A stretch of 64,000 nucleotides of DNA from Mycosarcoma maydis (taxonomy: Eukaryota > Basidiomycota > Ustilaginomycetes > Ustilaginales), in contig NC_026498.1 in the NCBI RefSeq assembly GCF_000328475.2, forward strand, positions 310,001-374,000, written 5' to 3'. The translations under genes were made by a program, and so were the position numbers. The notes under the pieces are model-generated. The model had not been told where the DNA came from and searched no databases. It saw only the letters and a program-made list of their open reading frames with translations. Shown here piece after piece: positions 1,519-60,525 of this stretch (positions within the stretch are counted from its first letter, which is position 1; each line of letters begins with the position of its first letter).

Positions 1519-3670
1519 GTACCGACTGTAAACTCGAATTACTGAGCCCCACCAGAATGGTGTGAGTAGTGTGGATGGATCGCGTCTGTGCCTTCACTCC
1601 GTCCCTGAGCCCCACCAACCGACTTTTTGATACCATTCGTGATTGTGGACCCTGAATCTGGCCTTTCAGCCGCTAAATGCCGCCTGATGTCAACAATATC
1701 ATGCATTCCCAAGCTCGCAATGGCCGGCCCTAGCATCTCAAAGCGGTCAATGGCAGCTCGAACAGCATCCGCCGCCGAGCGGGATGCCAAAGAAGCTCGG
1801 CTGCAGTTAGCCGCTAGCGAGCTCGGCAATGGGACATACTCCAGCATTCGACAAGCCGCTGCAGCCCACAATGTGCCCAAATCAACGCTCCGCCATCGCA
1901 TTCAGGGCCGTCAGCCCAAGAAGGATGCTCAGATGAGCATGCAGGCACTTACTCCGGCCGCCGAAAGCGCCCTTGTCGACCATATCCGGCGTTGTGCCTG
2001 CAGCGGGTACCCTCTGACGCCCGCACTTATGAGAGTACGCCAACACTGTCTTACGTCGCGTTGGTCAGACAGGGCGTGCCAACTTTGGGCGCAATTGGCT
2101 GCAGGGGTTCCTGCTGCGACATCCAACAATTCGGTCTCATTGGTCACGCTGCCACGACAATCATGAATGCACGCCTCACCGGAACAACAGAGGAGGTGGT
2201 TCGTCAATGGTTTGTGATACTCTTGCCGAGATCATACGTGAGTACTCAGTGGCGTCAACCAACGTCTTCATTATGAACGAGACCGGGTCCATGTTTGGGC
2301 TTGGCGCTAGTAAGCGAGTCATTGTACCTTCTGGGGACCCAGCTTCTCGGTTTAGGGAACAGCCAGGAACCCAAGAGTCAGCAACTGTCATTGAATACCT
2401 TGGAAGCGGCGGACAGGTTTTACCACCGCTCATCATCACAAAAGGCAAGCGCCACACCGTTGGAGAGCAGCGTCGTATGAATGGGTTCCCTGGTACTTGG
2501 CACTTCTCAAAGTCGGACTCCGGCTGGACCAACAGCGAGCTTGCCGTCGAATGGCTGGAAACCATCTTCGAGCCCAGCACACGGCCGTCGAAGCCGTCAG
2601 ATTGGCGTCTACTCATCCTTGACCGCCATGAGTCACACACAAGCCAGGCGTTTTGCGATGTCCTTTGGTCACACCGTACCATTCCATTCCTGCTGCCACC
2701 ACACGTCACGCATGTGATGCAACCGCTACATGTTTCTATCTTCGGTCCGCTCACTTCGGCATACCAGCGTTTGGTCAGCCATTCGGCAGAGAGCGTGGGT
2801 GCGTTTATCGACAAAGCACAATTTGGAAGCGTCTACGCCCAGTCACGCGCACAGGTCCTCACACAGTCGGCAGCCCGGAAAGCTTTCTCAGACTCCGGTA
2901 TCACGCTTAATCCAAGTCCAGACAAGGTTCTACGCCGTCTGGCCGGCGGTTCCACGTCGTCAATGCAAGTTTCCAGAATGCAGTTGCAGGAACTTGCTGT
3001 GCCACGATCAGCCTCGGCATTCAATGACACCATTGATGCCTACCAGCAGAAACCCAACGCTCGGGAAGCACGAAAGCTCCGACGGTCAGTTCTAGAAGCC
3101 AACGAGAAGTTCCACGCTTCCATTGCTGTGCTGGAGGCCGAAATTACCATGCTCCGAGCTCAACATGAGGCAAAGAGCAAAATAGCTGAGTTGGTGGGAC
3201 GCAAGGTGGCAAAGGGTGATCAACAGGTGCTGTCCAAAGACGGCATGATCACCCGAGAACATTCAGAACGGGAGTTGGTGGCAAAAGGTCCATTCAAGGA
3301 AAGCAAGAGGCGGGGAAACCGCCAGGACGAAGCGGAGCAGGACACGGCACCTCCTGCAGCCACAGCTGCTGTTTACAACACCAGGTCTGATGATAGCAAT
3401 GTTGGTATTTTGGCATCAGCAATGACTCCACCTCCACCCCCAATGCATACCTTCTTGGATGAGCTGGACGATGGCGAGCCTCTCAGCTCAATCAGCAATG
3501 ACGACCCTGGCGAATTTGGATTCTTTGACACAGTTCCAGTAGCAAGCTCCTCACTTTGCAAGCATTGATTTCTGTTATCTCATCACGTATCATAGTATCT
3601 CACCATGTGGCAATCAAAGTTTCAACTTGTTGTGATCACAGGCGGCCGAGCTTACGATCATGATGAGTAC
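1519..3670 (+). mobile_element. pogo/Fot-type Tc1-mariner DNA transposon, copy 1 (decayed)
   Basis: The ends are set by comparison with the second copy at 19399-21139. Both begin GTACCGACTGT and end GAGTAC, and both are bordered by TA on each side (1517-1518 and 3671-3672 here), the target duplication expected for Tc1/mariner elements. Terminal inverted similarity is only GTAC plus little else. Inside is a transposase relic with an N-terminal helix-turn-helix and a DDE domain. The element is 2152 bp. Relative to the deduced coding frame it carries a 2-bp loss near 2035, a 7-bp gain at 2162-2168 and a 2-bp gain near 2214. Confidence 0.8.
1720..3568 (+). pseudogene. pogo-type transposase relic, copy 1
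   Basis: From 1720 the frame encodes a Psq/CENP-B-like helix-turn-helix (SSIRQAAAAHNVPKSTLRHR). It then passes through three frame breaks, and the second half is open from 2207 to 3568 as a DDE superfamily domain (NETGSM, LILDRHESH, VMQPLHVSIFGPL). In this family the catalytic residues sit in DETG, LILDGH and QPLD. Here the first Asp codon (2276-2278) reads Asn and the third (2729-2731) reads His, so only the middle Asp (2631-2633) remains. With frame breaks and two lost acidic residues the protein should be inactive. A C-terminal coiled coil and an acidic tail remain open. Confidence 0.82.
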
Positions 3671-3803
3671 TACCATCAGATTCAAATTTATATTTAATAG
3701 CGCGTCGGAGAGACAGATGCGTCGGAAATACAGCCACGTCATTGTCGTTATATCTAGTTTACATGTAGACCTGTGTCACCGATGCGGTGGTAAAGCCATT
3801 CCT

Positions 3804-5810
3804 TCAGGCGGAAAGTGGAGATACGACTGTGGAGTTCCACATTTGACCGGCAGCAATGAGCTTGCGAACGGCCTCTTTGCAGAAGATGACGCCCATCTTC
3901 GTTGAACAGATTCCAGCTGGACCACCTTCGTCGCCACCGCCGGTCCTCCGTTTGCGGTCTCCGACGCGCCACCAACCGATGAGGGTTGAGCTGTTCTTGG
4001 CTGGTGCCACTAAAGTCTCACGCTGCTCCTGACCCCAGCCATCGATGTCAGCATGTATCCTCCAAAAGCTGGAAAGCACCGCGACAGGACGCTTGGACAG
4101 CAACGTCTGGTAGTCGGAACTGGACTTGCGGAGGCGAGCAAAGTTAGGGCTCGCAGTGCCCAGATTGGCGTCCAAGCGCTCTAGCCAAGACGACATAAGG
4201 AGCCTCGGGTTGCCACCACCAGCGCCATAGATTCTCCAACCTCCGCCACCAATGTCGTGTTGGCGCGCTGCGCGTGCGCGTTGTCCTGGAGCCAGGATGC
4301 GGTCAACTACCGTCTTGCCTTTGAGCAGGCCGATGATGCGTGTGATGCCGACAGGCTCGATGAGAGCAGGCAGAAGGTCGTAGAAAAGCGAACCAAAGGG
4401 TCCGTGACGTTCGGCAAGATATCCTGCACGTGCTCCGGAACCTTGAGAAGCTGTGTCGGTGTACCAAGAGGCGGGAGTCTCTGCATCCACATGGAGGAAA
4501 GAATGCACCAGGTCAGGATGCTGAATGGCAAAGTCTTGGGCGAAAAGAGCACCATAGCCGGTGGAGACGAGCATGAACTTTCCGAGCAATTCACCATCCC
4601 CCTTTTCCTTCTTTCCCGCAGCATGCTGAGGGCTTGCGTTGAGGTCAACCTGGTCATGCTTTTGAAGAGCATGGTAGAGAGCTTCGGTCTGCAAGCGCAC
4701 CGAGGTAGGTTGGTAGACAAAGTCTGAATGACCGTAACCGATACGGTCCCAGAAGCAGACGCGAGTTAGAGCAAGGTGACCATCGTCGCCGCCGCCAGAA
4801 TTAGAAGGGGAGGAAGCCACCATCTCGCGGAGGAACTGCGCTGCGACTACGCCAGACACGCCTCGGTCCGACATGACCAGGGCGGTGGGTGCATCAACGG
4901 AAGCGTTGTCCGACTTGAGGGTACCTGGGCGAGCAGGAGTGGACTCGCAGGCGAGATGAAGGCGGAACGAAACAGGATAAGGGTTGACATCGGCCGGATC
5001 GGATGGGTAGACCGGATGCTTAGTGAGTGAAGTGGGATGCACCATGGTAAGATTGCCGAGAGGTCGGAAACCAGAATCGGCTGCGTCTAGCACTAAGTCC
5101 AAGGTTACGAGCGCAGAAGCGAGGGCGACAGCAAGGCAACCGAACAAGGCCCAGAAGAGCTTGAAACGCCTCTTCCACTTTGCTTGAGCTCGTGCCAGTG
5201 GGATCTCGGTGACAATGGGAGCGCCTACATCAGGATTGAGCGTGAAGGGAATTTTTTGCTTTTGCAGATGATGAGATGATAGGAAGGCCCAGAGCGTGGA
5301 AAGGAAGCAGAGAGCAACGGAGGTGAAGCCGAGGGAAGAGTGGGTGACACGAAATTCTGGAACGGCGAGGAGGAGCACCACGTCGGCCACGGTGCAGCAA
5401 AGGACGAAGAGATGAAAGAAATTGGTAGCGTGGGTTGCAAGCTCGAAGAAGAGAAGACCAGGGCCTAGCATGGAAACCGAGATGAGGCAAAACCAAAAGG
5501 GCAATACAGCAGGCGAGCGATGGGGAGGGAGGAGCAACGGAATGGGCTCAAAATAGTTGATGGCCAGTATTATGAGCAGGACGGTGACAGGTAGCAAGAG
5601 CAGCACGCCCAGGGCAAAGTAGAAACGGAGGAAGAGAGTGAGGTAAGGTGAGCCTCTCGAACGCCAAGCCCGTGGTGCAGATGGCAAAGAGTGGTGAGAG
5701 ATAGCGTGATAGTCGGGAGAAGTGGAAGATGATCCAAGGAGAGGCTGCCTCTCGCTGTCCTGAGCATGATCGGCGGCCGAAGCCACCGAGGAAGACGACT
5801 TGGTTGTCAT
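3804..5810 (-). CDS. polytopic membrane protein with degenerate alpha/beta-hydrolase domain
   Basis: This is an intronless 668-residue protein. A Ser-rich cytosolic head is followed by about five hydrophobic segments in roughly residues 55-250. After them comes a soluble half with alpha/beta-hydrolase landmarks: DRIGYGHSD (the DRxGxGxS oxyanion strand), then the nucleophile elbow region LVSTGYGALFAQDFAIQHP around residues 413-430. Aligned with the usual G-H-S-x-G-G elbow, the serine position is occupied by glycine, so classical hydrolase activity is doubtful. Related fungal proteins are annotated only as membrane alpha/beta hydrolases. It is divergently arranged with the sugar-nucleotide transporter at 6898; the two share a 1.1-kb spacer. 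The ATG at 5808-5810 opens the longest frame and precedes a plausible cytosolic head. I infer a non-enzymatic or scaffold role but cannot name a substrate. Confidence 0.72.
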   Translation of the reverse strand: MTTKSSSSVASAADHAQDSERQPLLGSSSTSPDYHAISHHSLPSAPRAWRSRGSPYLTLFLRFYFALGVLLLLPVTVLLIILAINYFEPIPLLLPPHRSPAVLPFWFCLISVSMLGPGLLFFELATHATNFFHLFVLCCTVADVVLLLAVPEFRVTHSSLGFTSVALCFLSTLWAFLSSHHLQKQKIPFTLNPDVGAPIVTEIPLARAQAKWKRRFKLFWALFGCLAVALASALVTLDLVLDAADSGFRPLGNLTMVHPTSLTKHPVYPSDPADVNPYPVSFRLHLACESTPARPGTLKSDNASVDAPTALVMSDRGVSGVVAAQFLREMVASSPSNSGGGDDGHLALTRVCFWDRIGYGHSDFVYQPTSVRLQTEALYHALQKHDQVDLNASPQHAAGKKEKGDGELLGKFMLVSTGYGALFAQDFAIQHPDLVHSFLHVDAETPASWYTDTASQGSGARAGYLAERHGPFGSLFYDLLPALIEPVGITRIIGLLKGKTVVDRILAPGQRARAARQHDIGGGGWRIYGAGGGNPRLLMSSWLERLDANLGTASPNFARLRKSSSDYQTLLSKRPVAVLSSFWRIHADIDGWGQEQRETLVAPAKNSSTLIGWWRVGDRKRRTGGGDEGGPAGICSTKMGVIFCKEAVRKLIAAGQMWNSTVVSPLSA

Positions 5811-6897
5811 GCTGACACTCGCAGCGAGGATGTAAGATCAGGGCGGATGCGAATTTCGATGGAATCCAGTTCTATAAGAGGGAAGTCAAACTGTACCGTG
5901 ATGTTGACGAGGCACAGAGTCTGCTGTTTTGCTACCACCGTCGACGGATACCGCGTTGAGGATGATGGTGCTGTTGGGGGGTGCGGTGGTGGTGAGGACG
6001 ATGGAGCACACGGCCCTAATCCGCCTGTGATGCCCTCCTTCACTGTATGGGGTTACGGTGCGGGGAATGTGATTCACGATTCGGAAAAGCCGAAAGTGGA
6101 TATGACGCCAGTATGCGCAACTCCTCCAAACGTGTCCCTGCGTTCAAATCACTGAATGCTGTGTCTCATGAAACACAGAAGCAGCAGACGTCAAGGAGCA
6201 AAAAGTGGAGGCTGCAAACTTCAAAAATCAAATCACGAATCGCGTGGACCACGAATGTGATTTTTGCGAGAAGACAGCTAACTTAGCCAAAGTTGATTAT
6301 TAAGAGAGAAAAAAAAGGGTTTCATGAATCACTTCGCAACGCTCCCAACGGGTGGGACGTGTCTGTTGAGCTTCTGCGCTGTCGTGTTGCTTGTGGCGTG
6401 TGGTGGAAAGTGTCTGTGTGCGTTCTGGAAGAACAACTGTGAAAAGGGTTAGAGGAACGCGCCAGAGAAGAATGGACGAGAGGCGTGCAGTTAAAGTGCT
6501 TTTCATGTGTCACTTTGACTTGCGACTGGGAGTCGCATTCACCATCGCTTTTTTACAGTCCACCGCTCACGCCTTGGTCGCTTTGAGTGGCTCAACAGGA
6601 TCCATTTGGCCTTGACCGTCGTAAGCATCTCCAACGCCGCACGCGCCACGCTCGGCACCTCCGATCTGAGCAGCAGTCCACCAGCCTGGTGCCACTGCTA
6701 GTTGGTTGCAACCCAATACGACCGCCCACTTCATAATCCAGGTCCACCGACGCCATCGCTCCCTGCCATTCTGTGATTGGCACCTTTACTCGTCGCCTCT
6801 CACGCTCAAGGCACACAGCCTCATCGGCGCTTTCCGTATGTCTTGACTCTTTCTGCCGCAGCATTTCACCTCTCCGAGCTTGTAGCCTCTCTTCAGC
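5811..6897. promoter_or_regulatory. divergent intergenic region
   Basis: Shared upstream region of two divergent genes. It holds several CACG/CGTG ten-mers (about 6063-6080 and 6228-6262) and a GCTAACTTAGCC word near 6277. No coding sequence is seen; short open frames are shadows. Confidence 0.5.
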
Positions 6898-8313
6898 ATG
6901 GTCAGCACCGTCTTGGGCCTGTCTCTCAAGCAGGTCTCACTCGCCGTGCTCACTCTTCAGAACACAGCTCTTGGCGTCGTGATGCATCACAGTCGTGTAT
7001 CTGCTCCTGTCGGCAAAGCCTACTTCTTTCCCACGGCTGTGCTCCTCACAGAGCTGCTAAAGTGCATCATATCGTTTGCCATTGCCGCCCTCTCTATACC
7101 CACCTCGAGCGACTCGCTTCCAATGCCATCAGGCTCACACAAGGCACCGACTTCCAAGCGCAAATACTCGGCTTCTGAGCACGACGTACTACAGCCGCTA
7201 CGATCCGACGCCTCTTGCTCGCGTCTGGCTCACTCGAAGCTCAATCTGGTGCTAGATCAGGTTACGGCCCAAGACTATTGGAAACTTTCCATTCCTGCCT
7301 TCCTCTACGTCCTCCAGAACAACCTGCAGTACATTGCCGTCTCCAACCTCGAACCGCCCGTCTTCATCTGCGCGTATCAGATGAAGATCCTCACTACTGC
7401 CTTCTTCAGCATTGTTCTTCTTCGCAAAAAGATCGGCATGTGGCAATGGCTTTCGCTCGGAATGCTAGCCATAGGTGTCGCCATCGTACAGATACAGAGC
7501 AAGTCAGTTTCCGGTCTGGTGCCCTTCGAGGTTCACACTCACGGTTATGGCCACGTATCTGCCGGTCCCGCCGCTGATCTACCCCCTCCGCCACCACCAC
7601 CTCCCTTCGATTCGCATCGTGCCCCACCCCCCGAACGTCTACCAAGCATCGGCTCCTTCCTCTCCGGCTCCGACACCAAGGACTACGACCGTCTGCCTCC
7701 ATCCTCACCTTCTTTTCCCGGCTCGCGCATATCCATGAGTATGGAGGAGAGCGCAAGAGCTGACAAGCCAATGCAGCCCATTCAAGGCTTTCTCGCCGTC
7801 ATTGCTGCATGCTTCACCTCGGGTCTCGCTGGCGTCTATTTCGAAATGGTGCTCAAGACCTCTGATGCCAATCTTTGGGCCAGAAATGTGCAGCTTTCCG
7901 CCTGGTCCCTTCTTCCCGCTGCGCTCCCTGTCTTCCTAGAGATGGTCCGTCATGGCATCGACTCGCCCTTCTTGCATTTCGGCGCGAGCGCATGGGCCAC
8001 CGTGGTGCTTCAAGTCACCGGTGGTCTGGCCGTCGCCATGGTCATCAAGCACGCTGACAATATCTTGAAGGGCTTCGCGGTCAGCTTCAGCATCGTGCTC
8101 AGCTTTGGCTTCAGCGTCGCCTTCTTCAATTTCCCATTTACCGCTCCCTTCGCTGCAGGTGTGACACTAGTCATCTTGAGCACACTCTCCTATTCTCGTG
8201 CGCCCATGAAAAGGCTTACAAAAGCTCCATCTACTTGGGCCACCGTGACAGACGCTGCGTCGTCCTCAGCAACTTCTTCCTTCCGCGACAAGACTAGGTT
8301 GCTCCGAGACTGA
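6898..8313 (+). CDS. UDP-galactose/nucleotide-sugar transporter (SLC35A family)
   Basis: This intronless 471-residue multi-pass protein matches the Golgi nucleotide-sugar transporter family. Family blocks in order are LTLQNTALGVVMHHSR at the N terminus, PAFLYVLQNNLQYIAVSNL, FICAYQMKILTTAFFS, GFLAVIAACFTSGLAGVYFE and NILKGFAVSFSIVLS near the end. These match the UDP-Gal/UDP-GlcNAc/CMP-sialic acid (SLC35A; fission yeast Gms1) subfamily. It should exchange UDP-galactose for UMP across the Golgi membrane to supply galactosyltransferases. Two loops are long for the family: one near residues 75-105, and a Pro/Ser-rich loop around 205-290, likely cytosolic. The ATG at 6898 begins directly at the first membrane segment. 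Specificity within SLC35A cannot be settled from sequence. Confidence 0.88.
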   Translation: MVSTVLGLSLKQVSLAVLTLQNTALGVVMHHSRVSAPVGKAYFFPTAVLLTELLKCIISFAIAALSIPTSSDSLPMPSGSHKAPTSKRKYSASEHDVLQPLRSDASCSRLAHSKLNLVLDQVTAQDYWKLSIPAFLYVLQNNLQYIAVSNLEPPVFICAYQMKILTTAFFSIVLLRKKIGMWQWLSLGMLAIGVAIVQIQSKSVSGLVPFEVHTHGYGHVSAGPAADLPPPPPPPPFDSHRAPPPERLPSIGSFLSGSDTKDYDRLPPSSPSFPGSRISMSMEESARADKPMQPIQGFLAVIAACFTSGLAGVYFEMVLKTSDANLWARNVQLSAWSLLPAALPVFLEMVRHGIDSPFLHFGASAWATVVLQVTGGLAVAMVIKHADNILKGFAVSFSIVLSFGFSVAFFNFPFTAPFAAGVTLVILSTLSYSRAPMKRLTKAPSTWATVTDAASSSATSSFRDKTRLLRD

Positions 8314-8584
8314 ATCATCACAACCATTACCACTTCCTTCAGCATAACCTCACCGACCTGTGCATTCATCTCTGTTGTGCCCATGTGTCTCGCTGAGCTC
8401 AAGCATGTACACGATCTAGAGCTTGCTCGCGTTGGCCCACTGTGCTGTCCAGTCCTAACGTGCTCCCGGCATCTTGAGCAATCTCTCATGTGCATTCGTG
8501 ATTATCGACTCGATGGATGCTGTCAACGGTGTTTGTTATCCTAAGGTAGGCTAGCCAAATGCCGGTACTTATCTGCTACATGAC

Positions 8585-9531
8585 TCAAAAGAGATCTGCA
8601 GCTCTGACCTTGTGAGTCTCTAGCCCATCTCCACTCAAAGCTGCCTGCTCGTTGGGCGGGGGCACGTTCGCCGAAACTCCGCCTGTTGGCGATGGCGCTG
8701 CTCTGTAACCGGGCGGCGGTTGCCTTGGAGGTGGCCTTGCAAAGTTCGGTGGTGGAGCTCCGTAGACCGGTGGTAGCGTTGGTGGAGGCACCGAGTACGG
8801 TCCAGGTGCACCAAACCCGCTCAACATGCCTGGCATCATACCGGGTATTGGCGCCTTGCCGCTCATGAGGGCCTTGTGTGCCTCCAGCTGGATTCGCAGT
8901 TGCTCTTTGGACAGCACAAGCTTCTCGATTCGCGGGCGTTTGTTCTGCGTCGGTACGTTTCCGTCAGCCCTTTGAGCGGCTCGGCGTGCCTTCCATTCTG
9001 CTAGATCCTTTTCCGGGATACCTGCCATGCCATAGATTTCGATCTCGAAAGAATCTCGCCCAGGTAACGTGTTCTCGATCCTGTCCAGCCGAACCAAAGT
9101 AAGAATGGGTCAGCGACTAGCGTGAGGTAATAGTTTGGCACATCAAGTCGGAGCAGCACCTACTTTTCTGGATCCGCTTTGTGTACTTGCGTAAGATGCA
9201 CTGCAAGACCCCCTGCTGTGTTCAGCCTTCGCGGACATTGTGGACATCTGTAGTGCTTGGATTTTTGATGCTGCAGTAGAACTGTTACAAGAGAGCAGCA
9301 AGGCGTTTGAGGTCAATTGTGAGACGATGCGAGCTCGCGTTCATTCTAATGGCCTACCTTTCTCGTCTTCGAACTCGCGACTACAATTCATTGCAAGGTA
9401 CGCGTTGGGATGTGGTCAGGTTTTTGTCAGCTACGATGCAGAGTGAGCGAGGGGTCAACGTGACAACCGACTTACTCGCAGTACCAGCACCACGCCTCGA
9501 GCTGAAGCGTCTTTCTCTTCTTCTTTGCCAT
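8585..9531 (-). CDS. BuGZ/ZNF207-type zinc-finger protein, four exons
   Basis: I rebuilt four exons on the minus strand: 9531-9476, 9380-9358, 9281-9164 and 9080-8585, with GT-AG introns and consistent phases, giving 230 residues. The joined protein starts MAKKKRKTLQLEAWCWYCD, then REFEDEK, then a finger region (HQKSKHYRCPQCPRRL...HLTQVH) and the block LPGRDSFEIEIYGMAGIPEKD. This order is the hallmark of ZNF207/BuGZ, a two-finger C2H2 protein that in animals binds microtubules and Bub3 and takes part in spindle assembly and splicing. The C-terminal half is Pro/Gly-rich and low in complexity, as in BuGZ. I do not see a clear GLEBS (Bub3-binding) motif. It converges on the transporter gene, with 271 bp between stops. 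Exon 2 is only 23 nt. Confidence 0.9.
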
Positions 9532-10569
9532 CGTCGCTGGCTCTTCCTGTGGTACGCTTGGGTCGAGAATTCTGATGAACGTGGAAAGCAAGAAGGATTC
9601 TAGCTTTCGACGACTCAGAAAGAACGCAGCTCCACTTGGAGCGCCAAGGACCCTTAACGCGCGAAGAGTTGCACTGCCAGTCGTAATGATGACTAATTCA
9701 GGAAGGTCCGAATTACACATGTCTCACTCGAAAATCGTGAATGTATCACGTTTTTTCGCCTGCTCTTCGAGGCTCTACTGTACAGTCTCGTCACTCGCCG
9801 CACGCGTTCCACGTTCACAAGATTCAATCGTGATTGATGACTCACGCTTATGTTTCACATGGCTCCAAGCTTGCTAGAGGAAACATCTTCGATTGTCACC
9901 AGGACTGTGACTCATGCCGTCCGTGTGAGCATACGAGGTTCATCTCTGTGACAAGTGACTCGTAGCTTTGTGACTCAGGCGACTACCCTTTGAAGTTTCT
10001 CAAACTTGATTGGATCCGAGGATAACCACTTTGAATAGAGCAAGATTTTCAGATGCGCTTGGCTCGAGCCAAGCGGCAGACGTCTCTGATAGTTCTCTAC
10101 AAATTTTGCAAGGGGAGTTTCACACGGGAAGCTGGACGAAGACAATGCTGTCAGATGCTCGTGCAAAGCGGTAGAATCTGGAAGGCTCATGCACTGCACC
10201 TGACGCAGTATGAGAAGCTGATGTTCACGGATAAGCTCACAAAGGGAGCACGCACACTTTGTATTGTTTCCCTGCTGAAGAACACTTTAAGCTCGTGCAC
10301 TCGGAACATACGACCACAGGCTGACAAGTGAAGGTTGCTAAGTTATCTAACGGAAGCAAGACCTAGCTTGGGAACATTCACTTCGTAAAAAACGGAGAAA
10401 TCGATCCTCGCAAACAGCCCCGGAGCCACCCTCACCCATCGCAGAAAGCCGGCGTAGCAGGCGTCCATGCAATATCCGAGCAGCGAGACGTATGTGTATT
10501 ACCGATTAGGCAGCACAGGGACCACATATTGTGACGCTGATCCGGTCGCGAAGTGTTGGCGAAACTCTT
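9532..10569. other. spacer upstream of the BuGZ gene
   Basis: About 1 kb without a gene I can support. It contains CACG/CGTG ten-mers near 9735 and 9825-9845 and a GCTAAGTTA word near 10335. Confidence 0.5.
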
Positions 10570-11335
10570 TCTTTCCCAAGAGCTGGTGGCTTGCTCGGCG
10601 GCACCATTGGTGCAGAACTGAGCGCCCTCGGCGTACCAGTCGACGTTGCCAGCTTCGGTGGCGAGTTTGACAGCGACAGCAAGGGGAACGTCAGCCTGAA
10701 CTCCAGCGGCACCATCAGTGGCGAGCGCCGACGTCTCCTTGGGCCTTACGCTCAGCCTTCTCAGGATCATGGTAGAAGAACATGCCGGGCATCATCGAAA
10801 GGTCACCACCCTTGAGCCGGAGGACAGTGCGGCAGAGCAGACACCAGAGAATAACAACAGAGTGACGGCCACGGACGTTGCCGGGTATAGCGATGTCGAC
10901 AAATCTGAGAGGCGGGACAGAGTCGTGAGTCGACAAACGAGATGCAGGATATGTTGACTTACAAGGCCTTGTGCATGGCCTGGTGGCTAACATGGGGGTC
11001 GATGACGATGATAACACGGGTCTCCTTGAACCAACGGGTGACATAGTTGGTGGAAGAACCGGGGGTGAAACGGTCAGCAATGTTGATGGCACCGGTCTGG
11101 CCAGCAAACGTGAGCACGGCGCAGTAATCGTACTGACGGCTGGAGACGACAGGAATTTCGGCAGGGTTCTTGAGAGTGACAACGGTAGCAAGGATACGAG
11201 CGGCGAAGATGATCTTCTCCCATTTCTTGCCGATACTGAACTGGTGGACACCGTCAGCGTGGCCTTTGTAGACTTACCGAGCCATCTGCTTGTCGGCGTT
11301 CTTGGTTCTGATGTGCGTCTTCAATGAGCATTGAG
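10570..11335 (-). pseudogene. relic of small-subunit ribosomal protein S0 (uS2/RPSA)
   Basis: Reading the minus strand gives recognisable uS2 segments in order: [68 protein letters not shown], then in another frame PPLRFVDIAIPGN and GRHSVVILWCLLCRTVLRL, then MMPGMFFYHDPEKAE. Two codons that should be Tyr (before VYKG and before VNI) read TAA. Between [10 protein letters not shown] and FVDIAIP there is one 7-bp gain at plus-strand 10924-10930 (AGT becomes AGTCGTGAGT); removing it restores an open frame through the conserved segment. A further frame change follows DPEKAE. Even where open, many positions differ from normal S0. I infer a dead duplicate, with the working gene elsewhere. No introns interrupt it, so retroposition is possible but not shown. 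Confidence 0.75.
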
Positions 11336-12848: not shown

Positions 12849-12851
12849 AAT

Positions 12852-13275: not shown

Positions 13276-13289
13276 TATTGAAGTTTTAG

Positions 13290-50100: not shown

Positions 50101-50737
50101 AGGTGAGAATAGGGTTGAGGATGTCGGCGAGACGAGCAAACTCGTGGAGCTTCCAGGCAAACGAAGTGGAGGCGATGGCTCTGTAAAGGCCATTGAAGAG
50201 AGGGACGAGCTTGACGACGACGATTTGCGCATCTCCGGCGGTGGCACCGAGAGCATCGCTGAGCTTGGCAGCAAGGTCAAAGATGGCGTTGATGCAGCGG
50301 GATCGGTGTTGAGGAGCGTTGATGGATACGCGGAGGAAGCTCGAAACAAGAGCAAAGGCAAGTTGATCGGGCAACGAGTGGTGGGACCAGCTCATCTCCT
50401 GGTCAAAGTCGACCAGGGTGAGCTGACGGAGGAGTTGCTCGAGGTCATCGATGACGGGGACGAGGTGCTCATCGTTCTTGATGTCGGTGGTGTGCTCGGT
50501 GGAGCGAGAGGCCGAGGAGATGGAAGAGGCAAAAAGAGCCAAGCTGATCTGGGTCCGAGTAGCCGAGGCCGAGAGGTAGAGCTTGGAACCAGTGGTGACC
50601 TTGCTGGTGGTGGCGGATTGAGCAAAGACGGAGCGAACCTTGGATCGAGCGGAAGGCACGTTGGCGATGTTCTCGGCGAGGTTGAGGGCCAGCGCGTCTA
50701 GGATAAGCTGGTGGGTGGGCAGATCGAGGCTGTCCAT
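44174..50737 (-). CDS. STT4: phosphatidylinositol 4-kinase III alpha (Stt4)
   Basis: This is an intronless 2187-residue protein. The long helical N-terminal region is followed by the lipid-kinase unique/helical domain and a PI3/4-kinase catalytic domain at the C terminus. Kinase landmarks are PLQSHAKAPFMATFKV, FKVGDDCRQDVLALQVI, the catalytic loop RDRHNGNMMID and the activation segment HIDFGFLFDIGPGG. The DRHNGN form and the SHAKAPF block distinguish the Stt4/PI4KA class from Pik1. Stt4 makes PI4P at the plasma membrane together with Efr3 and Ypp1. Length is close to human PI4KA (about 2100) and longer than yeast Stt4 (1900). The ATG at 50737 begins a helical N terminus typical of the family. 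Confidence 0.95.
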   Translation of the reverse strand: MDSLDLPTHQLILDALALNLAENIANVPSARSKVRSVFAQSATTSKVTTGSKLYLSASATRTQISLALFASSISSASRSTEHTTDIKNDEHLVPVIDDLEQLLRQLTLVDFDQEMSWSHHSLPDQLAFALVSSFLRVSINAPQHRSRCINAIFDLAAKLSDALGATAGDAQIVVVKLVPLFNGLYRAIASTSFAWKLHEFARLADILNPILTSVQTVRRLNEVLLLLDDQFDIRQQAVRATRRAPKVATVRPTDDQSEASVDTFFSGDEDEDADIVGPEGGFTFADNARSAQDAQDYRISFLARYRLAGVPLSGHYVLLSSIDILDTTLAQALAVNARPPIKDFSDFHKHGLDLDRIDPSRQSQADRFDLDADTAHGDDNDNDEHASSRAILAPDATKKAWNSLLRYSIDTSYFKSAASAPAAGGHANGTTNASAPQTNGNGSGNGSSLLASVTLIGSFASGTDKSAAFGQIGSAQIDKNTLYELDDTLYAVLRASNKSFHDVQRFLLSEGLKSQHVLPELHVPEILAESLKLSSLCSVARSLAGGANVDNNVFVRIRTLLSESAPVYDPRVQGAALQSVGVLVRNNSALALPMTRVLRHFVTSPIPVFLPNAHGASSPVLLAAARCLASCVTIAPGDDLVVSTMYNLLNYLGRDTPGGLGLGGVAGSGVSVRSGASRAVTARDQVNGISMSGSQANISARSEDQRRLINLSTITVISRLALEVGKPDVTALTISMLLQRLRNADVSAEAAILDNVVPLALAGPRSAYIDVVRALSAVSRSALTGGANRRAAVAVESAQLKLARGLGRLDERDERDSASSGENEATGGRKEIFLVELLQLFAEKGIQLQTVASSGKSSAEELAELNTDLATLLPAIAAVLEHKDIHPEVQPTTEIVSLFRNMWFLSVLFGFASPSNIRSHVTADGNAVSRPSSAAEAQAEIVGKSLSSISLKTPTLVPESAHNYLESDLEYNSVLKREFSNQTLDSQRKALSTVIPTHASEVRSFSYAQVTFLSTIYDLECLRSRMGRPSMVLSYFTNEGLNDSALVGAMQAIADKVIDFFIRDLGTQVNRHLLDPRVANEVKNLMLGCCHRVAKVRQVSQSILNKLLYALPSLLCDQDVVTTMLEILTLLREGCEAEYKDEFAPTYHYVSERANISFDLSDSYVQRNEILSQFLTKSREYLSLVMKLAPLELQGILERYLGTFDDSTLPDRSELGKSVALEYARSMPVSARKERLLPNLGGWRSDASSSFIGELSAKNTYLGEMTGIHLSLTKGVVELSNDPSNTMSPASVAECREQLATLSNDVGAKRKALPFAELRRLLYRTAALVVALPEPDYELLHFIVSIPFLVFTPEAISTACQVWTWVIGARPEVETKIMVELTIGWAMTAKARKGIFSPSLTTKHPFLRKTEMGAFDREEIVAEQEQAARLFTPHLSLIHLISSRFQAFRYRDPTMVLALVRLIQYSGAAVDRMSTHALSREARFTLLNFGFRLIQTSQLEGLVEYHMRESLYKLGYGWFASSPQWSFGGNRLQLSADMQVLQETLELLQRDVVRADQHVTSFPPTLSSVRMPGGLTLQEATKSFDEKKRLLQLLVENECSRLSVWANPLNTSSRGSDFVGSLSRSMNESNWSGVVESAWRIDAVTAVQLGSRFQSKALKSSLGRLIRSQPYKVVDTPSALKYLLEDHLKLAKKENADLKWLQYWAAVSPVEAIDLFQPEYENHPMVLQYAMRSLEQHPVELTFFYVPQVVQALRTDEYGYVEQFIFETSKISQLFCHQIIWNMKANSYKDDNAEEEDAMKPTLDRMVDNIVSALSGEAQDFYEREFGFFNEVTSISGKLKPYIKKSKPEKKAKIDEEMSKIKVDPGVYLPSNADGVVVDLDRKSGRPLQSHAKAPFMATFKVHREIVKPGDEGDENTPPKKTGVDVWQAAIFKVGDDCRQDVLALQVIAMFKNIYTTVGIDLYLNPYRVTATGPGCGVIDVVPNATSRDEMGRAKINHLLTFFIGKYGNPDTIAFQRARINFIQSMAAYSVVCHILQIRDRHNGNMMIDGDGHLVHIDFGFLFDIGPGGMRFEPYSFKLSHEMIDVMGGPASQGFRMFEELVVKAFLACRPFCAEMVDTCKLMLGTQLPSFKGAPTIDRLRDRFKPDLSEREAADHAKWLVKDAYGNRRAVLYDKLQEVTNDIPFAK

Positions 50738-51631
50738 GTTGACGGTTTGAGCGATGCAACGCTCTGATCGATGAATGGAATCGGATGTACTTTTTGGTGG
50801 TGATCACGATCGAATTCGAGGGCAAAGTGATGGTAGGAGGAGGAGGTGGTGGAGGAGGAGGAGGACAAGCCAAGCCAAGCATGCGGGGTAACCTTGAAAT
50901 CTCCAACCCACGGCTGTGACATACGAGAGAAGAAACACGAAAGTGCAAGTGCGGGTGCCGTTCGTGGTTCAGGCGGTTCCGCCGATGACGATTAAAGTCA
51001 CGAGTGTGATTTCGTGATTCGTGATTCGTGAAAAATTGTGTGGAGAATCCGTGACACCACAAAACAAAACAAAAATAATAATAAAAAGAAAAAAAGGCGT
51101 GAAAGTGTGAAAGCGTAAAAGAAGGGCGGTGTGAAAGTGGTGTGAGATTCGTGATTCGTGATTCGTGATTCGTGATTCACGATTAACGATATCGTTAACT
51201 TACTCAAAATTCACAGATTCACCATGGATTCGGACGCTTCGGCTTTGAGACACGCAAGGCAATTCACAGTTGTGAGTGCAGGACACCTCCTCGCCTGTTC
51301 AAGATGAGAAGAAACGCTCGATCACCGTCTCAAGATGGACGAGACTGTTTAGTTTGAACAAGCACTTGAAACGTCTGCAGAGCCTTTTATCTGTCATGCG
51401 GTGACGATAGATTCAAAAGCAGACGCTCTACAGCGCCATACAGGCTGGGCCCACCAGGCTGTGGCGCCAGCAATCGGAGGACTATATATACAGACGAAAG
51501 TGCCCTCACTCGACAAACGACGGGTTTCAAGCTGGAACGCGTCCATGGTTGTACGCATGGGTTTGTTCGCATGTGCTGCTTCTTCCAAAGCTGACAGCAC
51601 TATGTGCATCCTCGACACGACCAAGATCAGC
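50738..51631. promoter_or_regulatory. upstream region of STT4
   Basis: About 900 bases between STT4 and the YPT6 3' end. It contains AGT-CACG-AGT (50998), a 7-bp array (51147-51188) and a GTTAACTTACTC word. No gene. Confidence 0.5.
51147..51188. repeat. 7-bp tandem array, ATTCGTG x4 with variants
   Basis: Four ATTCGTG units, then ATTCACG and ATTAACG in the same register. The core switches from CGTG to CACG inside one array. Confidence 0.9.
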
Positions 51632-53471
<1,840 letters not shown>

Positions 53472-54521
53472 CTATTGGTTTGAGGTGCCCAAGCTCACGT
53501 GTTTGAGTGCAAAGTTGGCCTTTTCCAGATCGGACGAGGTTGACTGGCTCGATCGAGTGCTGGTCGACTCTGCCGATGATTGTCCGTGGCACAACCCGTC
53601 AGTGGAGGTGCTTGCGGGGAGAACGCGATCAAACTGCTTCAGCTGATCCTCCTCTTTTTTCTGCAACTTCATTTGATACCTCTTCTCCAACGAGTCGCCC
53701 ATGCTCCACACCACCCAAGCGCCCCACACTTGGCAGAAAGCCAAGCCGATCGTACAGATCCAGAAGAGTGCATCCCACGCGCTTGCGAGCTCTCTACTCG
53801 AAGAGTGCTGATACTTTACCCATACCCATACAGTCCCTCCGATGGATGCCAGCTTGAACACCAGGCTTTGCGCCGCTGCGATGCGGAACAGCGGACCGAG
53901 CACTTTTGCAGGCGCTGACAAGCGGTACAAGAACAGTGCGATAAACACAGTCTGTTCGGTTGTGGCCTGAAAGATCCAGAGCAAGCCTGTGAGAGCGAAG
54001 CTCGGATCCTGCAGCCGTTCCAGCATGACGAGCGACAGCGAGATGGCAAAACACGTGATGGCGTGATGCGCAATCATCGGATACGTCATTCGATACCTGT
54101 AGATCAGCTCGAACAGGTACAGCGCAGCGATCAGACACGCCGCCGCTCGTAACACGTTGAACCTCCACACGCTAAGCTCGTTCTTAAGCAGCCGAGATAC
54201 AGCAAGCTGGCAGATGAGCGCCGCGCTGGTGACGACGACTTGGAGAACGTAGATCACCATGGTGCGGCGGTGTTCCGCTTGGATCTCGTTGTACCATTTG
54301 TGCCCGATGACACGTGGGAGCACCCAGTTGTGCAGGACATTGGCGAGCAGGTAGAGGATAAAGAGGAGCGTGATAAACGAGATCGGGAACAAATAAGGCG
54401 TTTCGACCATAGTTTTTTGGTTGATAAGCTTGAAAACTTGGTCCATAGATTCGGGAGAGAGGTGCGAGAAGATCGCTGCTGGTGGAGAGGAGAGCGAAGT
54501 GCTGGTCGATGCGAGAGACAT
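53472..54521 (-). CDS. multi-pass membrane protein, TLC-like
   Basis: This is an intronless 349-residue protein with about seven hydrophobic segments between residues 42 and 285. The central block LYLFELIYRYRMTYPMIAHHAITCFAIS, with its paired histidines, resembles the TRAM-Lag1-CLN8 (TLC) domain. The surrounding segments (TEQTVFIALFLYRLS, FKLASIGGTVWVWVKY) fit the same multi-helix plan. The C-terminal tail is a short coiled coil (EKRYQMKLQKKEEDQLKQF) and a Ser/Thr-rich end. It lacks the full ceramide-synthase Lag1p motif, so I would not call it a ceramide synthase. The residue-level role is unknown; the location is probably the ER or another internal membrane. Confidence 0.6.
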   Translation of the reverse strand: MSLASTSTSLSSPPAAIFSHLSPESMDQVFKLINQKTMVETPYLFPISFITLLFILYLLANVLHNWVLPRVIGHKWYNEIQAEHRRTMVIYVLQVVVTSAALICQLAVSRLLKNELSVWRFNVLRAAACLIAALYLFELIYRYRMTYPMIAHHAITCFAISLSLVMLERLQDPSFALTGLLWIFQATTEQTVFIALFLYRLSAPAKVLGPLFRIAAAQSLVFKLASIGGTVWVWVKYQHSSSRELASAWDALFWICTIGLAFCQVWGAWVVWSMGDSLEKRYQMKLQKKEEDQLKQFDRVLPASTSTDGLCHGQSSAESTSTRSSQSTSSDLEKANFALKHVSLGTSNQ

Positions 54522-54774
54522 CGTTGTGGAAGTGCAAGTACAAGACTGGCAGCTCTTTCGTTGAATACAGTGCCGAAAGCGGAGACAAGCAAATCGAGAG
54601 CTTCTGAGGCAGAGACGTTTTTGGTACCACTCTTGCCATAGTCTTGCTTGGTTCTTATACCACTCTCGATCCGCTTCCTAGTCGAGCGCTGTTCTTGATG
54701 TAGCCTGTACAGCAACGACAAGAACGAGAGCACATGCGCAGACCTCAATTGCACAAATCCAATCTTAGCGATCT

Positions 54775-54799
54775 CAGCCAGCCAGCCAGCCAGCCAGCC
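54775..54799. repeat. (AGCC)6 microsatellite
   Basis: Tetranucleotide tract upstream of the TLC-like gene. Confidence 0.85.
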
Positions 54800-56012
54800 G
54801 CAAGCGGGATGACAGGAACGCTACAGTAGTCCGGACCAATTCAGCGCACACGCAGATGCACGCGGGAGCAGAGCCGGATAGACTGTCACGGATAAGCTAT
54901 ATCTGGGAGCTCCCAAGCTTTTGACGCCCAAGGAAGCAGCATAGATCCTAGCCGTAACCTGAGCGGTTGGACAAACAGTTGTCTCGCAATCGAGCCGGCA
55001 GACAGGGTCAAGCAATGCTCCCCATCGGGACACCACCAGCAAGGGTGAGCATGCAGCTGTTGGAGCGGGCATGATCATCGTGAACAGATCAGCCAACTTG
55101 CAAACTGACAGACGGCGCAAGATTCTGCGCAGCGCAGCTCGAGAGCAAGAGTTTCTTGACAGGTGTGACCAACAGCACCGTTCTCCGTGCTCGCAGATCT
55201 TGACTTTTTCCGGTGGTCGTCAAGTGCCAGTGTCTGCCGTTGACCCTTGCGTCGGGTCGTTGACACAGGTTTCATCAGGCTTCTCCTCTTCGAGATCTGG
55301 AGTCACCTCGGGACTTGTTTCTCGATGCAGGACGGCGAATGGCTGCGCTGAAAGACAAACGAAGCACCGCACGTCAAGACCATGTTGCCTCGGCACCGCT
55401 AGACTGGTTCCTTGGCGGATGGGCGTGTGAAGCGGTTGTCACTGAGTCAGTGTGGGACGAATTCAATGTTCGAGCAGCGCGTGCAAGTTGCTGCATGGCA
55501 AGCAGCGTGTGGTGGAATCGCATGGCAAGCGCGAATTATGCGTCAAAGGCTACGAACCGATGTAAGCAGACCGAACACGAACGGACGGCCCAGGAACGAT
55601 GCATACACGATTGGACATCGGAAAATAAGCTGGCTGCCGATGTGCGCACCGTTGTGTTGGATGAACATGCATCTGTGAGAGACAAATGTGGGCTGGAAAA
55701 GTGTGTCATATGTAAATCGTGATTGTGTAACAAAGTTGTTTGGTAAGTTAGCAAGCATACCGTATAGGGGACGGGATTGGCGGAGCTGGAAAGGTGTCAA
55801 ATCCAAACTTCTCTTGCAACCAAGCATAAAGCACGAAGGTGAAGTTAGCAATTCGTGATTCGTGATTCACAGATCGAAAAACTTGACAGGTGCCATTCAC
55901 GATTCGTGATTCGTGATTGTTTTTCACGTTTCGTGTTTCGACGTTATCAAGGCACGAGGCGAGAATCACGAATCAGTCGTGAGTGAGTGAATCACGAATG
56001 GAGTCACGAGTG

Positions 56013-56054
56013 ATTCACGATTCACGATTCACGATTCACGATTCACGATTCACG
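56013..56054. repeat. 7-bp tandem array, ATTCACG x6
   Basis: Six exact units; the longest perfect run of this heptamer in the window. AGT-CACG-AGT lies just left of it (56002-56011). Confidence 0.93.
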
Positions 56055-57464
56055 TTGCGGCCCGGCGGCAGGCGGGCAGGCCAGCTCGTCGATACGCCCG
56101 CTTTATCAGCCCTCGTGCCTGGCTGATGCGTAGAGACATTACATTGATATTGCTGTACTTGCTATGTTCGACATGCCTCGCGCGTCTGCTGTGCTTGGAT
56201 AGCAGTCGCCTTGCTGTGTCGGTTCGTCGATCCGATCGCTCGGGCGTAAGTTGGGACGTCGTTTCTTGTGGGATCGATGCCGAGCGGGTTTGTTTTTCCG
56301 ATCTCTTCTGTACACTCACTCTTTCCGCGCTTCATCGCCTGTCTCTACCAAACACCTCAGCTTCACCGATATACTATGCAGTGTGTCAGGCAGTGATGAC
56401 CGAGGCCCGTCGCAGTGGATTCTCGCTTTCCGTGCGAAACAGATATCGATGTTCCAGACGTCTTTGGTGCTGTTGTCACTATCCTCTATCGACAGCAGAG
56501 AGGAGGCATGGTGATGTTGGAGGCGGACAGTGTTCATGCAGCCCACCGTTGATGCAGGAACCCAATGAGAGGGCGCATCGATTGATAAGCAGAAAAGACT
56601 CTCTGTGTGGGCAGCATGGTGATCCATCGTTTTGTATTGGATGAATAGAAACAACTTAACAGCACCGAGAAATGCACACGGCACATGTGGCACATGGCAC
56701 GCAGCACGCAGCACGCGTTCGGGGTACACGCACGACGGTAGCATGCGTCACGTGTGTGTTTATCCGAGGGGGGACCAGATCTGTGCCAACCGGAGCTCAG
56801 CACGAGCTCAGTCGTCTGCCCTCTTTGCGTTTGTTTCTGTGCGGCTGTTGATATGTGTAGTTGGAAGACGAACAAGCCAGGATCATCGGTGTGACCTTTT
56901 CTCAATCCGATCGAGAACCTCTAACCGTGAACCACGAGTAACGCCTATACTGTACATGTTCAAACAGAGTAAAAAAACTGAAAAGACAAAGAAAAGATGG
57001 GATAAAAAATTGCGCTTACACTCGTCGATCTAAGGCGATTTACAGTATCGGGCATGGATCTTCGGGTCGATCGATGGACGACGTCGATTCGAAGATGTGC
57101 ACCAAACCCTGTTGGCCCATTTCCGCGCACAACCGGCATGGGCGAGCCAACGGTTGCACCACAACCAGTAACGACGTGCGTCATTAATGGTACAGTCGCA
57201 GTCTCAGGAGTGGTAAGTTGTGAATGACGTGCAGGTCCGCATTTGCAAAGTGTGCACACCAGGACTGCAAATCAAGCAAAAGAAAACGAATCAATTTACA
57301 ACATCTGAGCAGTCAAGCATGGCTACACGTGTGAGGCTCTCTGGCTCGAAAGCAGTCGGACATGGTGTGCATGCCAAAACCCGGAACGCTGTGCCGAGAA
57401 TCTAGCAGAGGACCCGACGATCAAGACAAAAACGAGTATTTCGAGTGGTCCAAGAGAAGCTCAC

Positions 57465-58697
57465 TCATTTGTAAAGAGCACGCTTGGCAGCGCGAACGAC
57501 GATAGCCGTGTCAGGGAACGAGAGCTTCTCGAGGTTCTGTGCGTAAGGCGTGGGCACAGCTGCACCGGTGACACGCTCGACGGGTGCATCGAGGTGGTCA
57601 AAGGCAAAGTCGTTGACAGTAGCCGCGATTTCGGCACCCACCGAGAACTGAGGGAAGCCGCTCTCGACGGTGACGATGCGGTTGGTCTTTTTGACCGAGT
57701 CGATAATGGTGTCGACATCCATGGGAGCAATGGTGCGCAGGTTGATCACCTCGGCCTCTACACCCTCCTCCTTCTTGAGGATCTCGGCAGCCTCCATGGC
57801 GTAGTTCATGCCGATCGAGTGAGAGACGATGGTGATGTCTTTACCTGCACGTTCGATCTTGGCCTTACCGATGGGGATGGTAAAGTCGTCCGAGAGCGCC
57901 TCTTGCGAGATAGGGAATGACTGACCGTAGAGGATCTCGTTTTCAAGAAAAACGACCGCATTCGGGTCACGAATGGCCGACTTGAGCAGACCGCGGCAGT
58001 CCTCGGCGGACCAAGGCGAGATGGTCTTGAGACCGGGGATCTGACCGTACCAGGCAGCGTAGTCCTGCGAGTGCTGAGCACCGACACCGGCAGCTGCACC
58101 GTTGGGACCACGGAAAACGACAGGACAAGGTACATTACCACCGGACATGTAGTAGGTCTTGGCACCCGAGTTGATGATCTGGTCGATGGCCTGCATGGCA
58201 AAGTTGAACGTCATGAACTCGCAAATCGGACGAAGACCGGAAAGAGCCGCACCGACAGCGAGACCGGCGAAACCAGATTCGGTGATGGGCGTGTCAATGA
58301 CACGCTTCTCGCCAAACTTGTCGAGCAAGCCACGGGTGATCTTGTAGGCACCATTGTAGCGTGCCACCTCCTCTCCGAGGATAAAGACCTTGTCATCGCG
58401 CAGCATCTCCTCTTCCATGGCCGAGTTCAACGCATCTCGGACGGTGATCTCCTGCGGCTTGCCATCCGTAGAAGCGTTGCGGGTGCTGGAAGGGATAAAG
58501 GCGGTAAGGGCGGCAGGGTTCGTCGTGAGGCGCGAGGAGCTGGCGATGGGCGACAACGACGATGACGACGAGGTGGCCTTTTCGAGCAAACGCGAGGGCT
58601 GCTTGGCAGCGGCGGTGGTGGAGACAGATCGAAGGCCCGAGCGGCTAGCGACGTGAACACGAGCCAGGGAGGCGAAAGCGGAACGAGCAGCAACCAT
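57465..58697 (-). CDS. PDB1: pyruvate dehydrogenase E1 component subunit beta
   Basis: This intronless 410-residue protein has an Arg/Ser/Ala-rich N terminus with no acidic residues in the first 40, as in a mitochondrial presequence. The transketolase pyrimidine-binding domain follows ([55 protein letters not shown]), with [20 protein letters not shown] and [18 protein letters not shown], then the C-terminal transketolase domain ([39 protein letters not shown]). With the E1 alpha subunit it forms the thiamine-diphosphate decarboxylase of the mitochondrial pyruvate dehydrogenase complex. Length and all family blocks are normal. Confidence 0.97.
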
Positions 58698-60373
58698 TTT
58701 TGCACGCGACTAGTACGAGCGACGACGAGGACGATGACGGCGAGGACGATCGGCGAACTTGGACGAGCACAGGTCGAGAGTGGGGTGGGCGAAGGAGAAA
58801 GGGGAGGAGCAAGTGCTAACGAGATGACCAACGAGATCAAGTCATGAATCGTGAGTGGACGACCGACCAGATACAGAACTTGAAACCTGTGCGAAAGCAG
58901 AAGAAATCAATCCTGAATCGCTCTGATCTCAGCAAAGCGCTTCAGCAGCAGCAGCAGCAGCAACACAAACCCACAGCGCGCCCAATCTGACCTCCAAAAG
59001 AAGAAACCAAAAAAACCAAAATGCGACAGAATCACAATTATAATTAAGTAAATTGGAAAAGAAGAAATAAAAGCAAAAACAGAGTGCGGAAGTGGAAACA
59101 AAAAGAGGTTGAACTGCTAAGCTTTTTTTTTTTTTTTTTTTGTCTTTTTCTTTTTCGTCGTGTCTGGTTCAAGGGTCTTTGAGATGCACATCGATAGGAT
59201 GCGAGAAATTGGGATCCATGTGTCAGCGAGAGCCACAGTCACGAGTTGTCAGAAGTGTGGTTCGAATAACAGTCAACGGCTGCACAAATCACGAATACAA
59301 AACGGTTGCACGGTCCCTTCAGAATCAATCACGAATCACGAATAAGCTCGGAGTTTGTTCGGCCACTCGTTTTTTTTGAACATAGTCCTGCGGAAAAGGT
59401 CCCAACAAGTCACAGAGTCACAAGTCGTGAGTCGTGGGCCGTGAGCATCGTGCGTGCTTGCGCACACCTGCCAGATCTAACACTGTAGACTGCTATGCAC
59501 AATGCGTGTGCGTGTGCGTGTGCGTGACATCCACGATCTTTGCAGCCGCTTCTGACCACGATGACCCGCCGCGCGATCATTGACGGGTCAGTCACGTTGG
59601 TTGACAAAATAGAATCCTCTTGGTCTCGAAAGCATGTCGTTGCAGAACTACACGATCTGCAAATTGTCATTGCAGCTAGCTGTACAAAGAAGGACGCAGA
59701 AGGACATGTCTAGACGACGGTCACAGTATCGAAGCTTGTCGCTGCCATCTCGCATTTAGCGGCAACATCGGGGCATGATCAAGAACGTGCTTGGGTTTGC
59801 ACTCACGACTTACGTGCTAACGTTGTTGGACTGTTAAGACAGCTTCAGTATGCGTTGAACCAGGTCAATCGTGAATCACGAATGAGCCACGGCTCTATCC
59901 GCCTTCACTCGGCGCATGTCAGTTCGAGAGGCAGAGACTGTATTCCCAAGCAGCAAGCACCAAGCTAAAGTTATCGTGTGTTGGGGTCTCTCGGCTTGCT
60001 CAAACTTGACCGGCGAATTTCGCGCATTTCCTCAACGGAGCGGCTTTGCTCGGTGCAACAAATCACGATCAGGAACGGACAAGAACGATCGTATCGGATC
60101 GTGTCTTGTCTCGCATGCTTCCAACTACCCCGATCGATCGACACCTCAGAAGCGCGTCGCTGCATTCGCGAAGCAACTCGTGACTCACACTGCAACAAAT
60201 CAAAAAATATTTCACAGTTGAGTGAGTTAGGTTATCACGGTCGTGGGTCATGTGCGAATGTGGTCTGATCACACAAATCGTGAATCGTGAATATTTCAAC
60301 CAACTCTGACTGTCTGCTTGGCTGTGGTCTCGTCTGGGATTTGTCTCATTTTCCATCGCAAATCATCAAGCAA

Positions 60374-60422
60374 GCGACAGGCGACAGGCAACAGGCAACA
60401 GGCAACAGGCAACAGGCAACAG
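60374..60422. repeat. 7-bp tandem array, GCRACAG x7
   Basis: Two GCGACAG and five GCAACAG units. Same 7-bp period as the CACG arrays but a different core. Confidence 0.92.
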
Positions 60423-60490
60423 ACAGCCGCCTCGAGACGCGGATCCTCGAATCAACTCGTGCGTGAATACTCACGACTGTATGTTGGTGA

Positions 60491-60525
60491 AATCGTGAAT
60501 CACGAATCACGAATCACGAATCACG
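60491..60525. repeat. 7-bp tandem array, AATCGTG + AATCACG x4
   Basis: Five units in one register, with the core changing from CGTG to CACG after the first. Confidence 0.92.

Follow-up and report, generated by a model that had tools for sequence, protein, structure and literature searches.

A recurrent 7-bp insertion between matched ANT triplets in the genome of Mycosarcoma maydis, a candidate transposon excision footprint

The DNA analysed here, called the window, is a 64-kb stretch of the genome of the smut fungus Mycosarcoma maydis (positions 310,001-374,000 of contig C21, NC_026498.1, 470,505 bases; genome of 19.66 Mb in 27 contigs). It carries two pogo-like elements, copies of a repeat resembling a long terminal repeat (LTR), a metallopeptidase gene and many copies of a ten-base word in which the same triplet, usually ANT, stands on both sides of CACG or of its complement CGTG (Table 1). 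The window was combined with a 200-kb sample (twenty 10-kb loci, one from each of contigs C1-C20), and counts refer to this 264-kb set unless another scope is given. Sequence read in detail amounts to about 2% of the genome; whole-genome figures are word and pattern counts and profile searches.

Table 1. Insertions, bare counterparts and runs of units in the window
Feature	Position	Strand	Basis
Span of 117 matched ANT-CACG/CGTG-ANT words	1635..60635	.	Word count in window
ATT-CGTG-ATT insertion in pogo-like (DDE_1) repeat; bare paralogue at 19530-19532	1635..1644	+	Alignment, pattern search
Bare ATT, empty counterpart of the 1635 insertion	19530..19532	+	Paralogue comparison
ATT-CGTG-ATT insertion; paralogue bare at 2321-2323	19810..19819	+	Allele comparison
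Bare ATT, empty counterpart of the 19810 insertion	2321..2323	+	Allele comparison
AAT-CGTG-AAT insertion, LTR-like repeat	13627..13636	+	Genome pattern search and allele comparison
Bare AAT, sister LTR-like copy (likewise 17802-17804)	15025..15027	+	Pattern search, allele comparison
AAT-CACG-AAT insertion, this copy only; bare in 5/6 genome copies found	13965..13974	+	Pattern search
GTT-CACG-GTT insertion (non-ANT triplet), this copy only; bare in 5/6 genome copies found	12817..12826	+	Pattern search
AGT-CACG-AGT insertion; bare AGT at 13207-13209	14043..14052	+	Allele comparison
Two units on ATT, opposite orientation, CACG then CGTG	13159..13175	+	Run scan
Four CGTG units on ACT	40031..40061	+	Run scan
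Mixed-orientation run of five units on ATT, four CGTG followed by one CACG	51147..51184	+	Run scan
Five CACG units on ATT	56013..56050	+	Run scan
Mixed-orientation run of five units on AAT, one CGTG followed by four CACG	60491..60528	+	Run scan

Matched words were far more frequent than expected. In the window, NNN-CRYG-NNN words with equal triplets numbered 177, vs. 29.8 expected from flanking triplet frequencies and a mean of 24.7 (maximum 35) in 50 first-order Markov resamplings; for the narrower word ANT-CACG/CGTG-ANT the count was 117 vs. 0.76 expected, with a maximum of 3 in the same number of resamplings. The recurrent 7-bp insertion with matched triplets put forward in the original prediction was confirmed by these figures and by the genome-wide count, where ANTCACGANT occurred in 27,565 copies vs. 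262 for the reversed control pattern. Copies were divided equally between the strands (13,811 and 13,754), so that no orientation is preferred along the contigs, and unequal triplets were seen in 7 of about a hundred ANTCACGANT places among the matches listed, at the start of C1. The double unit AATCACGAATCACGAAT was present 770 + 797 = 1,567 times genome-wide and its reversed control not once. All 20 sampled loci carried words, at densities from 0.5 to 3.1 per kb. No report of such 7-bp insertions was found among open-licence PMC papers, as far as their titles and the beginnings of their abstracts tell.

Where CACG stood between two ANT triplets, these were equal in 361 of 402 cases (AAT 151, ATT 115, AGT 54, ACT 41; off-diagonal total 41). 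The middle bases of the two triplets are tied together, which indicated a duplication. When spacers of 0 to 14 bases between the triplets were compared, only length 4 was strongly enriched (661 of 1,031 matched; base rate of matching 0.30 at lengths 5-10 and 12), and the signal at length 11 (257 of 648) arose because of double units. A further 124 matched CACG words, part of them by chance, had triplets other than ANT. As to the triplets beyond ANT that had been proposed earlier, GTT was upheld by a clean allele at 12817, whereas AAG (9 seen vs. 1.0 expected) and TTT (4 vs. 0.5) showed weak excesses.

The surroundings of the words were also not random. Among isolated words (n = 213), C preceded the triplet with a frequency of 0.46 and G followed it with 0.39 (background 0.29 in each case); pooled over both sides, the flanking C/G reached 0.42 vs. 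0.28 at non-coding ANT (P = 6e-6), with nothing comparable further out. Most words lay outside open reading frames (ORFs) of at least 200 aa (335 of 361), and the proportion of ANT sites occupied was 6.2% outside such frames vs. 0.44% inside. Both complementary forms of the core were present among ANT-matched words (CACG 192, CGTG 169). With every word read as CACG, the middle triplet base was a purine in 205 and a pyrimidine in 156 (116 and 97 among isolated units).

The core is a single word, CACG, in either orientation. Counted on both strands with palindromic cores halved, ANT-matched CACG/CGTG accounted for 361 sites and the commoner one-change cores for far fewer (CACA 34, TACG 20, GACG 17, CATG 17, CAAG 14), the rarer ones being CACC 9, CGCG 7, CTCG 7 and CAGG 6, and AACG, CCCG and CACT with 1 or 2 each. 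The original prediction had described the core as a class, CRYG, and had held that an element with C-R...Y-G ends would fit it. The class did not hold, since cores outside it (CACA, TACG, GACG, CAAG) were about as frequent as CATG and CGCG or commoner; a transition at the CpG of CACG yields either CATG or CACA, and CRYG is therefore best read as CACG plus decay. With it the proposed ends lost their support, because CATG and CGCG are expected from substitution in CACG and CATG is not commoner than CACA. For this last reason mixed heteroduplex repair was likewise unsupported as the origin of CATG and CGCG. The earlier reading of CATG as part of the class can be traced to the window being rich in this core (CATG 12 and CACA 9 in the window; CATG 5 and CACA 25 in the 200-kb sample). 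CATG words were concentrated at window positions 12770-18958, which held 8 of the window's 12 ANT-matched examples, partly through duplicated copies. Genome-wide, AATCATGAAT was found in 1,010 places (CATG is palindromic, and both AAT and ATT flanks are included) and AATCACAAAT in 748 (CACA with the AAT flank only).

A weaker 5-bp core, CACAG/CTGTG, was flanked by matched ANT in 12 of 15 cases and may represent a longer scar of the same process; it was seen in 14 places in 315 kb, for example at window positions 51209 and 59408. Matched triplets were slightly over-represented around cores of 5-10 and 15-40 bp starting with CAC (142 of 4,024 matched vs. 249 of 10,664 unmatched), an excess that may come from decayed runs.

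Duplicated sequences within the window allowed inserted and bare alleles to be compared directly. All six allele pairs of the original prediction were present, each differing by exactly one 7-bp insertion (Table 1). When the window was aligned with itself without guidance, four of the six (1635, 12817, 13627 and 13965) emerged as gaps of 7 bp; the other two (19810 and 14043) did not, because gaps were scanned only in alignments of at least 150 bases. Bare alleles have no CACG at the site from which a copy could have been made. At the 13627 site, a genome pattern search found 42 of 45 copies of the LTR-like repeat bare and 3 with the insertion; these three may share one event. In another repeat, which includes sites 12817 and 13965, four of six copies were bare at both and the two window copies carried one insertion each. 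Only the two window copies, one bare and one inserted, matched in the search for the 1635 site. Locus L001, which has 17 bases in common with the surroundings of this site, did not align to the repeat of the window and seems to be a run of units without relation to it. Thus, wherever more than two copies were available (three sites), bare was the common state among paralogues. Together with the near-diagonal triplet table, this bore out the proposal of a process that duplicates a 3-bp ANT target and adds 4 bp. Gains within coding frames had also been proposed: the one at 19813-19819 is a clean 7-bp allele, and the one at 2162-2168 was not confirmed, as its paralogue differs by a 17-bp gap and offers no clean allele.

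Most units were solitary (267 of 314 runs), which excluded slippage in pre-existing arrays as the main source of the words. Adjacent units had the same orientation in 47 pairs and opposite orientations in 18 (65 pairs; 47 and 22 of 69 when CATG and CGCG were included), vs. about 10 same and about 10 opposite in 500 simulations of uniform random insertion, where opposite pairs reached at most 24. Neighbours in opposite orientation require separate insertions. As the 18-22 observed fall within the simulated maximum, the mixed runs can be accounted for by repeated hits, whereas uniform runs grow by slippage.

The analysis therefore established a 3-bp duplication, a fixed 4-bp core in both orientations, mostly bare paralogues, a genome-wide scale, a preference for non-coding DNA and a weak C-ANT-G context. 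It is rather probable, in our judgement, that the words are excision footprints of a cut-and-paste transposon of the DDE type that duplicated a 3-bp ANT target. Each ANT-CACG-ANT would then be the scar of one past insertion, with the 3-bp target copied and four fixed bases left behind. Integration of the transposon would take place at ANT with a stagger of 3 bp, and at excision it would be cut four bases inward from each end, which would put a CACG overhang on both flanks; the overhangs would anneal through their outer C:G pairs around two central mismatches, and repair in favour of either strand would yield CACG or CGTG. In an equivalent variant, three bases would come from one end and one from the other (CAC + G). 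Staggered excision of an element with CACG ends is thus proposed to account for a fixed core in two complementary forms. The element may still be moving in very few copies that do not increase in number, or may have been lost, and the short heptamer runs would result from successive insertions into one triplet together with ordinary slippage. As each non-replicative jump would add one scar and no copy, a lineage could hold thousands of scars and almost no elements.

The target-site duplication expected of an excision footprint was present, as the matched triplets and the bare alleles show, and the weak flanking context suits a symmetric transposase complex. Several observations weigh against the footprint interpretation. 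Excision scars usually vary in length, and here one length dominates. Strand-blind repair predicts equality of purines and pyrimidines at the middle triplet base, so that the bias observed is a weak point. GACG, CAAG and CACC look too frequent for plain decay of CACG. The part of the genome that was read, roughly 2%, showed no ANT-CACG...CGTG-ANT element with inverted repeats: in 357 kb, some loci overlapping (about 315 kb distinct), 42 candidate end pairs had at most one further matching base directly inside their ends. An inverted-repeat scan of 264 kb with any 3-bp duplication gave 175 matches, of which 14 of low complexity were dropped and 27 of the remaining 161 had ANT; among the best 120 of the 161, those starting with CACG/CGTG beside ANT were runs of words. 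An all-against-all comparison of the loci (low complexity masked, matches below 50 bases and exact ones above 500 dropped, pairs within the window omitted) revealed no element family; what it brought up were overlaps between loci, runs of the heptamer, a single local repeat in L007 and a single match of 65 bases shared by L008 and L012. Models of CACTA tnp2 and Plavaka had no match in the genome, the control genomes being equally silent. To these points is added the generally precise excision reported for PIF/Harbinger elements (PMC4561436).

Comparison with known systems showed partial likenesses. Elements of the CACTA/EnSpm group share the 3-bp duplication and ends beginning with CAC, and differ in their heterogeneous scars, besides the tnp2 and Plavaka searches, which were silent in the control genomes as well. 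In Sleeping Beauty the overhangs pair at their outer bases around a central mismatch, which gives two complementary core forms as here; the core is of 3 bp and the target is TA. The Minos scar described by Arca et al. in 1997 reportedly consists of TA plus four bases of the element ends, in two core forms due to heteroduplex repair, and is thus like the present words in combining a target duplication with a fixed core from the ends; Minos serves as the precedent for the mechanism proposed here. The duplication there is reportedly of TA (2 bp), in contrast with ANT (3 bp) in the present case, which is known from scars alone. TA duplication as in Tc1/mariner was not what was found, the ANT targets including ACT and AGT; the two complementary core forms of Minos were. 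The net gain is 6 bp in Minos, for which a six-bp scar and the term "hit and run" are on record (PMC3386967), vs. 7 bp here. For Sleeping Beauty, the footprint is given as TAG(T/A)CTA (PMC2874221).

An alternative that we regard as possible and on balance unlikely is direct micro-insertion, in which an enzyme (a domesticated transposase or an RNA-templated polymerase, for example) makes a 3-nt staggered cut at ANT and itself supplies CACG, no mobile element ever having been at the site. It agrees with a product of nearly invariant length and with the existence of 27,565 words when the sequence read showed no element as their source, and it explains the missing element as well as a transposon does. 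However, a 3-bp duplication with a near-symmetric C-ANT-G context is the outcome of integrase-type insertion, the simplest source of a fixed 4-bp cargo would be an element's ends, and we know of no enzyme that performs direct CACG insertion at 3-nt staggered cuts. That an enzyme of this lineage, present or past, writes CACG at ANT genome-wide, as a programmed micro-insertion amounting to about 1% of the genome in 7-bp steps, is accordingly a doubtful proposition.

Much less probable is that the words are footprints of PIF/Harbinger elements still in the genome. Tnp2, Plavaka and DDE_Tnp_4 were the transposase families searched, and the DDE_Tnp_4 (PIF/Harbinger) profile found three matches, on C2, C7 (3319) and C20 (144343). 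A 3-bp duplication was indeed observed, its middle base is free as in Tourist elements of this group, the copy number here is low, relatives exist in other smuts, and the group typically duplicates a 3-bp target, its excision being modelled as staggered cuts within the duplication (PMC4561436). Against this, the copy on C2, the one of the three that was read (2.5 kb), has inverted ends starting with AGAGGTTTTGGTC at 1,201,608 and 1,203,325, with flanks TTA and CTA, not CACG with ANT; its frame appears shifted, and the group is reported to excise generally precisely. The probable PIF/Harbinger element at C2:1201608-1203325 measures about 1.7 kb, and it was rejected as the source since its ends and flanks differ from the scar. 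Its transposase frame seems to be shifted near the start, a second, convergent ORF accompanies it, and there are relatives in smuts such as Sporisorium reilianum and Testicularia cyperi.

A heptanucleotide microsatellite, (ATTCACG)n, multiplied through slippage and expansion, would resemble the observed 7-bp unit runs, and it is in keeping with the pure runs (AATCACGAATCACGAAT, 770 + 797 copies) and with 47 same-orientation neighbours where independent insertion predicts 10; we consider it very improbable, since most runs are single, bare alleles lack a CACG to copy, each of four different triplets is found duplicated and a single run can contain both orientations. Slippage can enlarge runs and cannot start them. 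Scarcely credible is a conserved binding motif, such as ANTCACGANT read by a transcription factor, which would agree with the concentration outside ORFs and the weak constraint on the base beside the triplet and would neither force identical middle bases nor show up as a gain of 7 bp in individual copies of a repeat. The diagonal triplet table refutes it as the origin, and the words may at most serve secondarily as binding sites.

With the proportion of matched triplets as a correction (27,565 x 361/402), true micro-insertions were estimated at about 25,000, or about 0.9% of the 19.7-Mb genome at 7 bp each. The initial observation was thus confirmed and enlarged and the insertion of 3 + 4 bp was supported, the transposon footprint being the best, if unproven, inference. 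About 25,000 near-identical insertions have accumulated, while the part read showed no parent element. Should these be hit-and-run scars, they would form a record of transposon jumps invisible to copy counts, and element-poor genomes such as those of smuts may have been shaped by elements of which few copies or none remain; should no element be involved, the writer would be a new kind of DNA-modifying activity. Either way, presence or absence of the 7 bp would be a dense strain marker and a source of frameshifting mutations.

Background-corrected words with 0, 1 and 2 changes numbered 359, 254 and 298. The one-to-zero ratio of 0.71 points to a long history of the process, with a depth of about 7% divergence if it acted in a burst and about 20% if at a steady rate; the two-change shell is too noisy to separate burst from steady rate (431 to 1,522 for control cores). 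Among LTR-like matches of at least 500 bases and 97-99% identity, none of 37, query excluded, had a 7-base net gain (difference by coordinates 0 to +2), hence no sign of recent activity was seen in this family; one match at 94% identity is 7 bases longer than the query.

The LTR-like repeat itself (window 13289-18603, about 570-730 bp) had 114 genome matches in one cluster per contig (18 contigs listed), with copies often paired 5.8-6.0 kb apart. This arrangement suggests LTR retrotransposons at centromeres, so that window positions of about 12-20 kb are a candidate region and may be the centromere of C21. The two pogo-like elements (1526-3680 and 19420-21147) are diverged, with stretches 68-85% identical; the ORF at 2207-3568 matches DDE_1 (PF03184), and CTGAGCCCCACC follows TA near the start of both. 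The gene at 24490-27408 on the minus strand encodes a metallopeptidase of the fungalysin type (M36). One conserved gene of the window showed identities of 85% with Sporisorium reilianum and 84% each with Ustilago trichophora and S. graminicola.

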